Source of the DNA: Lachnospiraceae bacterium
Lineage (GTDB): Bacteria; Bacillota; Clostridia; Lachnospirales; Lachnospiraceae
Direction: 5' to 3'
Length of the DNA stretch: 39,671 bases
Assembly: GCA_014804245.1 (NCBI GenBank)
Contig: JAAVAE010000022.1
Coordinates: 1-39,671, forward strand
The first letter of the stretch is position 1; every line of letters begins with the position of its first letter. A program made the translations under genes and the position numbers. The notes below the pieces were generated by a model that searched no databases, was not told the origin of the DNA, and worked only from the letters and a program-made list of their open reading frames with translations. Shown piece after piece: positions 12,974 through 17,857 of this stretch.

Positions 12974-15900
12974 TCAATCAAACGATTCAGAAGAGAGCAC
13001 TTCCTCGAACTCTTCCTCATCAAAACCTTCATCCAGATCTTCCTCTTCATCAGCACTCACAAGTTCACCGCTGTCCTCATCGAATTCCTGCTGCTGATAT
13101 CCCATGGAGCTGAGAGATTCCTTCTCGTAGTCATAATTCTTGTCATTTCCCTCAATCTCATAACGATAATCAGTATCACCATAATCAATGGTTTCCATGA
13201 TTTCAACTTCTGTGTTGTCATCACGCAGGACGCGCACATCAAGACCCAGAGACTGCAATTCTTTGAGCAATACCTTAAAGGACTCAGGAATACCCGGCTC
13301 AGGAATATTGTCGCCCTTGATGATTGCTTCATAGGTCTTTACACGTCCCACCACATCATCAGACTTCACAGTCAGAATTTCCTGAAGCGTATAGGATGCA
13401 CCATATGCCTCTAACGCCCATACTTCCATTTCTCCGAAACGCTGTCCGCCGAACTGGGCTTTACCACCTAAAGGCTGCTGGGTAACCAATGAGTAAGGAC
13501 CTGTGGAACGCGCATGGATCTTATCATCAACCAGATGATGGAGCTTTAAGTAATGCATGTGTCCTATGGTTACCGGGCTGTCAAAGTACTCACCCGTTCT
13601 GCCGTCGCGAAGTCTTACCTTACCGTCTCTGGAAATCGGAACGCCTTTCCAAAGTTCTCTGTGGTCGCGGTTTGTATATAAATATTCCATTACTTCCGGG
13701 AGAAGTTCTTCTTTATGCTTTGCTTCAAACTCTTCCCAGCTTAAGTTTACATAATCATTGGCAAGATCCAATGTATCCATGATATCATCTTCATTTGCGC
13801 CGTCGAAGACAGGAGTTGCCACGTTAAATCCAAGTGCTTTTGCTGCCAATGACAAGTGAATTTCCAATACCTGTCCAATGTTCATACGGGAAGGCACGCC
13901 CAGCGGATTCAAAACAATGTCAAGAGGGCGGCCATTCGGCAGATAAGGCATATCTTCTACCGGAAGAACACGGGAAACAACACCCTTGTTACCATGACGT
14001 CCAGCCATCTTGTCACCAACAGAAATCTTTCTCTTCTGCGCAATATAAATACGAACTGCCTGATTCACACCAGGAGAAAGTTCATCGCCATTTTCTCTCG
14101 TGAACACCTTTGCATCCACGATGATACCATACTCTCCGTGAGGTACTTTAAGGGAAGTGTCTCTTACTTCTCTTGCCTTTTCACCGAAGATTGCGCGAAG
14201 CAGTCTTTCCTCGGCGGTCAGTTCTGTTTCTCCCTTAGGAGTAACCTTACCAACCAGAATATCGCCGGCACGAACCTCAGCACCGATTCGGATAATACCT
14301 CTCTCATCCAGATCTTTTAATGCATCATCACCGACACCCGGAACATCTCTTGTAATTTCTTCCGGTCCCAACTTGGTATCTCTTGCTTCTGCCTCATATT
14401 CTTCAATGTGTACAGAAGTATATACATCCTCCTGTACCAGTCTTTCGCTCAAAAGAACTGCGTCCTCGTAATTATAACCTTCCCAGGTCATAAAACCAAT
14501 CAGCGGGTTCTTTCCTAAAGCCAGTTCTCCTTCGGAAGTGGAGGGACCGTCTGCAATCACCTGACCAGCTTCCACATGTTCACCCTTAAATACAATGGGT
14601 TTCTGATTGTAACAGTTAGACTGATTGCTTCGTGAAAATTTCGTCAGACGGAATTCCATCTTTTCACCATCATCACAACTCATCCTGATCAGCTTTGAGG
14701 AAACATAATCAATTGTACCTGCCTTTTTGGCAACCACGCAGACACCCGAATCCACAGCTGCCTTGGGTTCCATACCAGTTCCTACAACAGGTGCTTCCGT
14801 CGTAAGAAGCGGAACTGCCTGACGCTGCATGTTGGATCCCATCAGCGCACGGTTCGCATCATCATTCTCCAGGAAAGGAATGAGTGCCGTTGCCACTGAA
14901 AATACCATCTTAGGAGATACGTCCATATAATCGAACATTGCCTTAGGATATTCGGACGTCTCCTCTTTATAACGACCGGACACTGTATTTCTTACAAAAT
15001 GCCCTTGTTCATCCAGTGCCTCATTTGCCTGTGCCACATGATAGTTATCTTCTTCGTCTGCCGTCATGTAAACCACTTCATCTGTAACCTTGGGATTTAC
15101 CGGGTCAGTTTTATCTATTTTACGATAAGGTGCTTCTACAAAACCATATTCATTAATCCTTGCATAGGAAGCAAGTGAGTTGATCAGACCGATGTTGGGT
15201 CCTTCAGGCGTCTCAATAGGACACATTCTTCCATAGTGAGAGTAGTGAACGTCACGTACCTCAAATCCGGCACGGTCTCTGGAAAGACCACCGGGACCTA
15301 ATGCCGAAAGACGTCTCTTATGCGTCAATTCACCCAATGGATTGTTCTGATCCATAAACTGGGACAACTGGGAGGAACCGAAAAATTCCTTCACCGCAGC
15401 CTGTACCGGTTTAATATTGATGAGTACCTGCGGAGATATTTCTTCCGCGTCATGAGTGGTCATTCTCTCACGGACAACTCTTTCCAATCTGGAAAGACCT
15501 ATTCTATACTGGTTCTGCAGCAGCTCGCCTACCGCACGAATACGTCTGTTGCCCAAATGATCGATATCATCGTCATTGCCAATCCCATATTCAAGATGAA
15601 TATTGTAATTGATGGATGCCAGAATATCTTCCTTTGTGATATGTTTAGGAATCAATTCATGTACATTCTTTTTAATAGCATCTGCAAGCGCCTCCGGATC
15701 CTCGCTGAACTCTTCAAGAATCTGTGCAAGCACCGGATAATAAACATGTTCTGTGATGCCCAGTTCTCTGGGATTACACTCAACAAAGTTGGTGATGTCT
15801 ACCATCATATTAGAAATAATCTTTACATTTCTTTCTTCTGTCTGAATGTACACATATGGAATTGCTGCATTCTGAATCTGATCTGCCAGTTCAGCAGTCA

Positions 15901-16840
15901 CTTTGGTACCTGCTGCTGCCAGCACCTCACCCGTAAGTGTGTCTACCACATCCTCAGCCAGGACATGGTGTCTGATCCTGTTTCTGAATGCGAGCTTTTT
16001 ATTGAATTTATATCTGCCTACTTTCGCCAAATCATATCTTCTGGGGTCGAAGAACATTGCATTAATAAGGCTTTCTGCACTTTCAACGCTTAAAGGTTCA
16101 CCGGGGCGGATTTTTTTGTACAACTCTAAAAGACCTTCCTGATAATTCGTAGAAACGTCTTTGGAAAAGCTGGCTTCAATCTTAGGTTCATCTCCGAACA
16201 GTTCCCTGATCTCATCATTCGTGCCTACGCCAAGCGCTCTTATGAGAACAGTAATCGGAACCTTTCTGGTTCTGTCAACACGTACATAAAAAATATCATT
16301 GGAATCCGTTTCGTATTCAAGCCACGCGCCGCGGTTAGGAATAACCGTAGAGGAAAATAACCTCTTACCAATCTTATCATGACTGATTGCATAATAAATG
16401 CCTGGGGAACGAACCAACTGACTTACGATAACACGTTCAGCTCCATTAATAACAAATGTACCAGTCTCCGTCATCAGCGGAAGATCTCCCATGAAGATCT
16501 CATGTTCACTGATTTCTTCTTTCTCCTTATTATAGAGACGTACCTTGACCTTCAGGGGAGCTGCATAGGTTGCATCCCGCTCCTTACATTTTTCGATGGA
16601 ATATTTCACTTCGTCTTCACACAGTTCAAAATCCACGAACTCAAGACTTAAATGACCGCTGTAATCCGCAATCGGTGAAATATCATCAAATACTTCCTTA
16701 AGGCCTTCTTCCAGAAACCACTTGTAGGAATCCTTCTGAACCTCAATCAGGTTCGGCATCTCCAGAACCTCTTTCTGCCGTGAATAACTCATACGCATGT
16801 TCTTGCCTGCGGCAATGGAACGTATCCTGTTCTTTTCCAT
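12974..16840 (-). CDS. rpoB: RNA polymerase subunit beta
   Basis: Beta (1288 aa) forms the other jaw of the RNA polymerase catalytic core. The rifampicin region [25 protein letters not shown] is present in wild-type form, written here in two adjacent segments: [13 protein letters not shown] and [12 protein letters not shown]. The active-site segments [11 protein letters not shown] and [24 protein letters not shown] are intact. The protein ends with an acidic tail ([18 protein letters not shown]), as in its partner beta'. It is transcribed from its own promoter 83 bp upstream of the ATG, behind a terminator that closes the rplJL unit, so rpoBC is not forced to follow ribosomal protein transcription. 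Confidence 0.98.
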
Positions 16841-16951: not shown

Positions 16952-17018
16952 GAAACATTTTTCCGTTTTGGAAAATTTTTGAAAAAAGAGTTACTTTTTA
17001 CACTATGACCAGCGTGAC

Positions 17019-17156
17019 GCTCTGAGAGGATAAATAATCCAACGTCGCCGCGCTCCCGCTCCGCAAAAAGCGTAGCAGACGCTAGACTCGAAAAAACCTC
17101 GTCAAGCGCTGACGCTTTTTGAGGGGCTCCTTATGGATTATTTATCCTCTCAGAGC
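17019..17156 (+). repeat. Structured 138-bp repeat, copy 1
   Basis: The element has two perfect 22-bp inverted arms (17019-17040 and 17135-17156) around a 94-bp interior. Inside, CAAAAAGCGT (17064-17073) pairs with ACGCTTTTTG (17112-17121), and smaller stems nest within. The interior is very similar to that of copy 2 in the opposite orientation. Arms differ from copy 2 at 8 of 22 positions, with both strands of the stem changed together. No reading frame fits. It may be a miniature mobile element, or a structured RNA or cruciform element. The 639-bp gap between rpoB and rplL holds only these repeats, a promoter and a terminator. Confidence 0.85.
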
Positions 17157-17228
17157 TGTGTTTCGGCTGCCTGGTGAATAATAGTGAACATTATGTTACA
17201 CTTACTTTGCAGGCTAGCCGATAACGTA

Positions 17229-17366
17229 GCACAGGACAGGTAAATATTCCATAAGGAGTCCCTGTAAAAACGTCAGCGCTTGGCGAGGTTCCTCACGAGC
17301 CTAGCGTCTGCTACGTTTTTACGGAGCGGGAGCGCGACGACGTTGGAATATTTACCTGTCCTGTGC
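17229..17366 (-). repeat. Structured 138-bp repeat, copy 2 (inverted)
   Basis: Same design as copy 1 on the other strand: perfect 22-bp arms (17229-17250 and 17345-17366), a 94-bp interior and inner stem GTAAAAACGT / ACGTTTTTAC (17264-17273 with 17313-17322). The arm sequence differs from copy 1, sharing mainly the TAAATAnTCC end. A 72-bp spacer separates the copies. Because they are inverted, the pair could also fold onto each other. Confidence 0.85.
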
Positions 17367-17393
17367 GGACTCCTTGACTCCCCCATGAAAAGT

Positions 17394-17435
17394 AAAAAAC
17401 AGACTATGCACTGCTTAATGCAAATGCACAGCCTG
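17394..17435 (-). terminator. Terminator downstream of rplL
   Basis: Minus strand: CAGGCTGTGCA pairs with TGCATAGTCTG (11 pairs, two G-U in RNA), then TTTTTT. It begins about 45 bp after the rplL stop. Confidence 0.8.
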
Positions 17436-17479
17436 TCTATATGATTTTAAGTAAGATCGTTCCGATTACTCCGAAGCAA

Positions 17480-17857
17480 TTACTTCAATGTAACCTTAGC
17501 GCCTTCTGCTTCCAGTTTAGCCTTGATATCATCAGCTTCTTCCTTGGATGCGCCTTCCTTTAATGTCTTAGGAGCTGCATCTACAAGATCCTTAGCTTCC
17601 TTCAGGCCAAGACCTGTAGCTTCACGAACAACTTTGATAACTTTAACCTTGTTAGGACCAACTTCTGTCAGTTCTACGTCAAACTCTGTCTTCTCTTCTG
17701 CTGCTGCACCTGCATCACCAGCTGCTGCTGCAACTACAACGCCTGCTGCTGCAGATACGCCGAATTCTTCTTCACAAGCTTTTACAAGATCATTTAATTC
17801 TAATACTGTTAACTCTTTGATAGCGTCGATAAATTCCTGTGTGGATAACTTTGCCAT
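17480..17857 (-). CDS. rplL: 50S ribosomal protein L7/L12
   Basis: L7/L12 (125 aa) forms the flexible stalk that recruits translational GTPases. An N-terminal dimerisation helix ([30 protein letters not shown]) here splits as [13 protein letters not shown] and [17 protein letters not shown], followed by an Ala-rich hinge (about 35-52) and the C-terminal domain with [20 protein letters not shown]. The start at 17857 has GGAGG 8 bases upstream; an upstream in-frame extension starting MGNNETL is rejected. It follows rplJ by 78 bp, and a terminator closes the unit. Confidence 0.97.

Follow-up and report, generated by a model that had tools for sequence, protein, structure and literature searches.

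The twin element in the rplL–rpoB gap

The DNA analyzed here, termed the window, is a 39,671-nucleotide stretch (positions 1–39,671 of contig JAAVAE010000022.1, assembly GCA_014804245.1) of a Lachnospiraceae bacterium whose genome is referred to as G000. On its minus strand lie rplL (17480–17848) and rpoB (12974–16840, an open reading frame of 1288 amino acids). Both gene names are taken from a preliminary description of this DNA, and the start of rplL was chosen by us, the mechanical open reading frame extending to 17917. A hairpin with a T-run, terminator- or attenuator-like as judged by eye, lies directly after rplL (17400–17440, minus strand). The gap between the two genes contains two oppositely oriented structures of 138 bp, each composed of perfect 23-bp inverted arms separated by 92 nt: 17019–17041 and 17134–17156 in the first half, and 17229–17251 and 17344–17366 in the second. 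The preliminary description gave the same architecture as 22-bp arms around a 94-bp interior, and the twin structures are real. All four single strands fold with z scores of −9.0 to −11.0 relative to 200 dinucleotide shuffles.

The interiors of the two halves are 87% identical. Their arms differ at eight positions, each change being mirrored on the partner arm, as had been described and as inspection by eye confirms; the inner stem also differs in a compensated way (by eye). Half-element 1 (17019–17156) has type-1 arms (GCTCTGAGAGGATAAATAATCCA) flanking the conserved tip, the sense of which (AAGGAG ... GNRA loop) is on the minus strand, and a covariance model matches it at 17014–17162 of that strand with 159 bits. 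Half-element 2 (17229–17366) has type-2 arms (GCACAGGACAGGTAAATATTCCA and variants) and the conserved tip with its sense on the plus strand, where the model match spans 17223–17371 with 160 bits. Both arm types recur in other twins of G000; within this genome, type-1 arms are nearly invariant and type-2 arms have variants. The differing arms of the two halves are two recurring arm types, not the outcome of drift between the halves. The earlier proposal that the fold is kept while the sequence drifts holds between lineages, where compensated drift of the arms is visible, but not between the two halves of this twin.

The halves are separated by a 72-bp linker (17157–17228), which has similar spacing in other twins of this genome and is probably made up of the inner ends of both half-elements. 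The outer inverted ends, which are GTTACTTTTYAC-like, lie outside the 17019–17366 interval covered by the preliminary description. On the left (16990–17018, plus strand), the terminal inverted repeat (GTTACTTTTTACAC) is joined to a subterminal stretch, ...CAGCGTGAC; similar ends are found beside other copies in this genome and, with perfect 8-bp duplications, in the genome G033. On the right (17367–17395, minus strand), the inverted end consists of a terminal inverted repeat (ATGAAAAGTAA) with its subterminal stretch. The whole twin element spans 406 bp (16990–17395) and consists of two foldback MITEs arranged head to head. It is flanked by the left and right copies of a target-site duplication, AAAAAAGA (16982–16989) and AAAACAGA (17396–17403), an imperfect 8-bp direct repeat that is identical at seven of eight positions.

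By eye, the element is inserted into the T-run of the hairpin that follows rplL. At 86–100% identity, a 122-residue RplL query matches 30 of the 37 genus genomes, G000 included, and the first 47 codons of rpoB served as the tblastn query in the comparison of rplL–rpoB loci. Two of the 30 loci do not extend to rpoB, and among the 28 that hold both genes, many of which have a hairpin with a T-run after rplL (by eye), the core is present in the gap only in the window and absent from the other 27. The genome G010 has an empty site, in which the two flanks adjoin apart from three extra A residues in a run of A. The search for target duplications and empty sites that the preliminary description had proposed gives the 7/8 duplication and the empty site of G010. 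The T-run raised the possibility that terminators are preferred targets, a proposal that was rejected since the target duplications found elsewhere are, by eye, not rich in T. At the loci L200 and L193, the rplL–rpoB gap of G012 carries another kind of short element, bounded by TAACAGTTCAG ends, and that of G020 carries a possible relic, a GTTACTTTTCACGGG stretch, both observed by eye.

Copies, ends and possible movers

The preliminary description had staked its reading on further copies in related genomes with arms that stay complementary, and had suggested a covariance-model scan. Such a scan, with a model (R1) that was trained on 35 divergent copies, finds 63 matches in G000, a 2.93-Mb draft that is 59.7% complete, and matches in 25 of 37 genus genomes, including 27 in G010, 15 in G018, and 39 in G019. 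Under stricter filters, with which weak copies may be missed, matches occur in 96 of 299 genomes sampled across the family and in 8 of 391 sampled across the class, all eight of which belong to the same family. A blastn comparison with phages and plasmids gives no match at E 1e-3, and one 20-letter pattern has no exact match in IMG/VR. One exact 26-letter pattern occurs in a single record (L044) among the genome contigs.

Many copies in G000 adopt the twin arrangement, with a type-1 half beside a type-2 half. Among the 34 adjacent core pairs of the fetched loci, 32 share the head-to-head order and two do not; G000 and G010 supply 25 of the 34, and one or more G268 pairs are counted twice. Other species mostly carry the element as a single foldback, ~210–250 bp long where both ends are seen. 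As judged from crude longest-ORF calls, only 2 of 205 copies lie inside an open reading frame of at least 150 amino acids, placing the family between genes. The copies are short, numerous, and free of a transposase gene.

Several loci show further arrangements. Four model matches lie within ~10 kb in L144 (G312:C205:9500–23000), and two of them form a close head-to-head pair. L027, L029, and L082 are hybrid copies that combine portions of the two halves, as expected from recombination between twin halves. In G216, three short matches (C2:95898–95941, C3:307722–307765, and C6:192736–192779) cover only model positions 49–92, the inner hairpin without arms. Eight contigs of G000 (C4, C5, C7, C15, C24, C37, C40, and C58) carry an element within ~200 bases of their start, and the assembly of this genome seems to be interrupted by the family.

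The same tip occurs between four types of terminal inverted repeats, GTTACTTTTCAC, CACGGAAATCAATTTTCA, GTAACAGTTCAG, and CTAGGTAATTGCGAAAC, with flanking duplications; the fourth type is seen in one copy, L114 of G224. With boundaries guessed automatically (8 of 177 copies had none), perfect 8-bp duplications flank 8 of 169 copies, compared with a null rate of 0.0002. Single elements of G033 have the ends GTTACTTTTCACAGGC...GTGAAAAGTAAC and the perfect 8-bp duplications GGCTAAAC, GGGATTTA, GGTGAATT, and CAAAAGGC. In G303, the tip is found both between CACGGAAATCAATTTTCA ends (L175, duplication CTGATACC) and between GTAACAGTTCAG ends (L142, TAATAATC; L140, TTTTCCAT, the latter by eye). Among 13 twins of G000 and G010 with placeable ends, only that of the window reaches a 7/8 duplication, which suggests that most of the other 12 are old or have misplaced ends. 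Presence or absence at the orthologous rplL–rpoB site is a further MITE trait. By these tests the element is a MITE; unlike ordinary MITEs, it has a conserved centre and exchanged ends.

An autonomous partner was found only for the GTTACTTTTCAC ends of G033, and none for the other end types. This partner is a 10.9-kb transposon (L155:707–11608) with inverted ends of the first type and a 9-bp duplication, CTTCTTTAC, recognized by eye. It encodes an IS66-type transposase (PF03050, E 1.7e-15) in addition to MobA/MobL pieces in two frames, a primase-like zinc finger, and an acetyltransferase gene. IS66 elements, as described in the available text of PMC11946415, have 8-bp direct repeats and ends of 20–30 bp that start with GTAAGCG. 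The family resembles them in its 8–9 bp duplications and in the PF03050 transposase between matching ends in L155, but its ends start with GTTAC or GTAAC. At E 1e-8, IS66 matches occur in 20 of 37 genus genomes and are absent from the copy-rich G010, G018, and G019; with these three genomes lacking a match and the other end types having no known partner, IS66 is unsupported as a general mover across the genus. A 1.8-kb autonomous copy with G303 ends, suggested by match positions, was discarded because L168 contains two separate short foldbacks.

A conserved tip between covarying arms

An asymmetric tip of ~95 nt is conserved across the family, and the arms differ by lineage. The alignment used for most counts (A1) contains 35 of the 45 copies of a non-redundant set, from which copies with N, near-duplicates, L082, and L060 had been omitted; L045p, L048, L083, L071m, L020, L010, L014, L029, L031, and L028 were left out, and all 35 rows are found letter for letter in the loci. 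A further alignment (A2) was made from 89 loci, a subset. Between many lineages the arms are unrelated in sequence yet complementary, pairing in 93.5% of arm cells in A1. Both refutation tests named in the preliminary description, for further copies and for complementary arms, thus speak for a real and conserved fold. Over the entire structure, which was derived from the same alignment, 96.3% of cells are paired and 36 of 48 pairs have both-side changes. None of 500 shuffles scores as high, and slid versions of the structure pair at 37–45%.

The loop fits GNRA in 116 of 119 copies, and the tip contains a conserved CGAG/CGAG opposition that we take to resemble tandem G-A pairs. Many cores contain TAGCGT, a motif of rolling-circle single-strand origins; an origin of this type was rejected, as the motif is not invariant and sits in a covarying stem. 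Insertion of the core into ready-made palindromes was likewise set aside, since L160 and L173 appear, by eye, to be deletion derivatives rather than empty palindromes. Three 232-bp foldbacks of G303 (L168:1132–1363, L168:2736–2967, and L177:1840–2071; −175 to −201 kcal/mol) carry the tip in a divergent form, with arms of ~75–80 bp that are predicted to pair nearly throughout, and they perhaps represent a second subfamily.

Wobble pairs were counted in the element and, with the same pipeline, in RNase P from 30 genus genomes. The element has 53 G-U and 39 A-C cells (39 and 33 on the reverse strand), compared with 251 and 16 for RNase P. RNase P folded on the wrong strand still gives 168 and 63, showing that the folding method itself favors G-U. 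The arms alone have 11 G-U and 16 A-C cells in A1, and 23 and 37 in 119 copies, although neutral decay of dead copies would likewise give a ratio near 1. The core alone has 40 and 12 in A1, with half of the G-U cells coming from one doubtful pair; the ratio is 20:12 without this pair and 14:12 without two. For the core in 119 copies, the counts are 119 and 33, or 41 and 33 when two columns taken as misaligned or unpaired are dropped. One pair of the GNRA stem has 16 G-U against 2 A-C.

Pair-keeping changes also separate the element from RNase P, with 51 one-side and 338 both-side changes in the former and 219 and 94 in the latter, the element alignment being more diverged (mean identity 69% versus 87%). 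Among own-genome copies, compensated double changes exceed one-side changes when cells are counted (92 versus 58), whereas distinct states show the opposite (27 both-side versus 41 one-side), indicating that shared inheritance inflates the cell counts. Orientation relative to tandem genes, which again rests on crude longest-ORF calls, has no significant bias: 42 copies have the same orientation and 55 the opposite (p 0.22), and for singles outside G000 and G010 the counts are 21 and 35 (p 0.08). Rfam gives no family at the gathering score for the window stretch, with four sub-threshold matches, and only tRNA for seven loci. The best of these matches, MIR5380, a plant-type microRNA precursor (E 8.9e-06, 37.6 bits versus a cut-off of 150), was dismissed; it spans parts of both halves and reflects their inverted repeat.

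Because the arms have no G-U preference, unlike RNase P, it is well supported that their pairing is maintained at the level of DNA rather than RNA. For the tip, whose core leans to G-U, a role as RNA is the less probable reading. The preliminary description had left three options, a structured RNA, a cruciform, and a miniature element whose ends must pair. The miniature element is borne out by the inverted ends, the duplications, the empty site, and the dozens of copies; the structured RNA is unsupported for the arms (11:16 and 23:37, against 251:16 in RNase P); and a cruciform or other DNA-level pairing is favored for the arms, while the tip core leans to G-U with all columns kept (40:12).

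Interpretation and comparison with known elements

On the basis of the copies, the ends, the target duplications in relatives, the empty site, the conserved tip, and the pairing of the arms in the aligned lineages, the element is probably a twin MITE-type non-autonomous DNA transposon that recurs as a unit of ~400 bp, is moved in trans, and has arms that are kept complementary at the DNA level. The available text of PMC10969869 describes prokaryotic MITEs as short, geneless, intergenic elements with terminal inverted repeats and a transcript predicted to be stably folded, and gives direct repeats of 7–9 bp for the example QMITE2; all of these traits are common to the window element. The family differs from the MITEs of that account in two respects. 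The interior tip is conserved family-wide while the ends, of which there are four types, and the arms change, and compensated changes occur in paired arms that are 20 to about 80 bp long.

Transposases that recognize the ends of the element would move it in trans, and for the GTTACTTTTCAC ends of G033 the mover would be an IS66-type enzyme. How the arms stay complementary is less certain, although a DNA process explains their pairing best. The tip, with a GNRA loop that is stable as single-stranded DNA, could fold the strand back, and a polymerase could then copy one arm from the other by template switching, such that both arms would change together. The tip would escape this homogenization and stay conserved, so that the element probably requires it in order to move or replicate. 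Unlimited homogenization would erase the asymmetric bulges of the tip, which implies that the tip is either selected or shielded. In the available text of PMC8794818, template switching and hairpin priming write several compensatory changes at once while the loop is kept, and template switches are enriched at GNRA loops, which are stable in DNA too. The hairpins described there and the element are alike in their multi-base compensatory changes, retained loop, and GNRA preference; those hairpins are in RNA genes, whereas here a mobile-element family would be the substrate of a putative process. Template switching perhaps acts on the arms.

Three other explanations bear on the same observations. 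A transposase or host factor may have to bind a folded DNA hairpin or cruciform, with selection alone keeping the arms paired. We regard this as a genuine possibility, though not the probable one: the arm mismatches are symmetric between strands, the asymmetric tip could tell the two strands apart, and the excess of one-side over both-side distinct states (41 versus 27) is what stepwise mutation gives, but same-genome cells show the reverse (58 versus 92), and the ~75–80 bp arms of L168 and L177, predicted to pair almost throughout, exceed what a binding site should require. It is unlikely that the element is a mobile structured RNA, in which the tip would be transcribed and act as a regulator, antiterminator, or protein-binding RNA and transposition would only spread it. 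The strong covariation, the GNRA-fitting loop, the resemblance of the CGAG/CGAG opposition to tandem G-A pairs, the family-wide conservation of an asymmetric tip, and the G-U excess of the core with all columns (40:12) and of the GNRA-stem pair (16:2) would all suit an RNA. The arms, however, show no wobble preference, the whole element has only a slight one on the forward (53:39) and reverse (39:33) strands, orientation to genes is not significantly biased, the twins hold both orientations, and no Rfam family reaches the gathering score.

REP/BIME and REPIN elements are inverted pairs of imperfect hairpins between genes. Transposition by a Y1 (RAYT) enzyme, through single-stranded hairpins, is not expected to yield 8–9 bp target duplications or long terminal inverted repeats. 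Similar to those elements in the available accounts, the present family has imperfect hairpins, occurs as inverted pairs, and is spread between genes, and 32 of its 34 adjacent pairs, at least one G268 pair being counted twice, share one arrangement. The window element is longer, and it has both target duplications and long terminal inverted repeats, so spread of a REP/BIME-like element by a Y1 transposase is very improbable.

Among the papers listed in searches of the open-licence literature, none describes this family by title or abstract start, a result that leaves room for an existing description. In the available text of PMC8040213, 250 candidate RNAs from human microbiomes are given as palindromic, and the tip core may be among these candidates.

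The MITE-type transposon that we favor has consequences for the reading of covariation, which commonly counts as strong support for an RNA function. Here, covariation is overwhelming, yet the arms have no wobble preference, a pattern that points to DNA. Comparison of G-U with A-C counts, controlled by an RNA from those genomes, is suggested as a cheap check that would help to separate RNA from DNA pairing. In some genomes dozens of copies are present; the element seems to interrupt assemblies, and it is found within operons, rplL–rpoB among them. The family also raises the question of why a mobile element should conserve its centre and exchange its ends, where recognition usually takes place. 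One reading, which we put forward as speculative and rather doubtful, is that the centre is a portable DNA tip, the conserved, asymmetric folded apex of foldbacks with unrelated transposon ends, through which single-stranded DNA folds back and rewrites one arm from the other. If this were true, the tip would build and renew inverted repeats and thereby borrow different transposases, the centre rather than the ends would define the family as a class of mobile DNA, and it would provide a natural case of RNA-like covariation without an RNA function.
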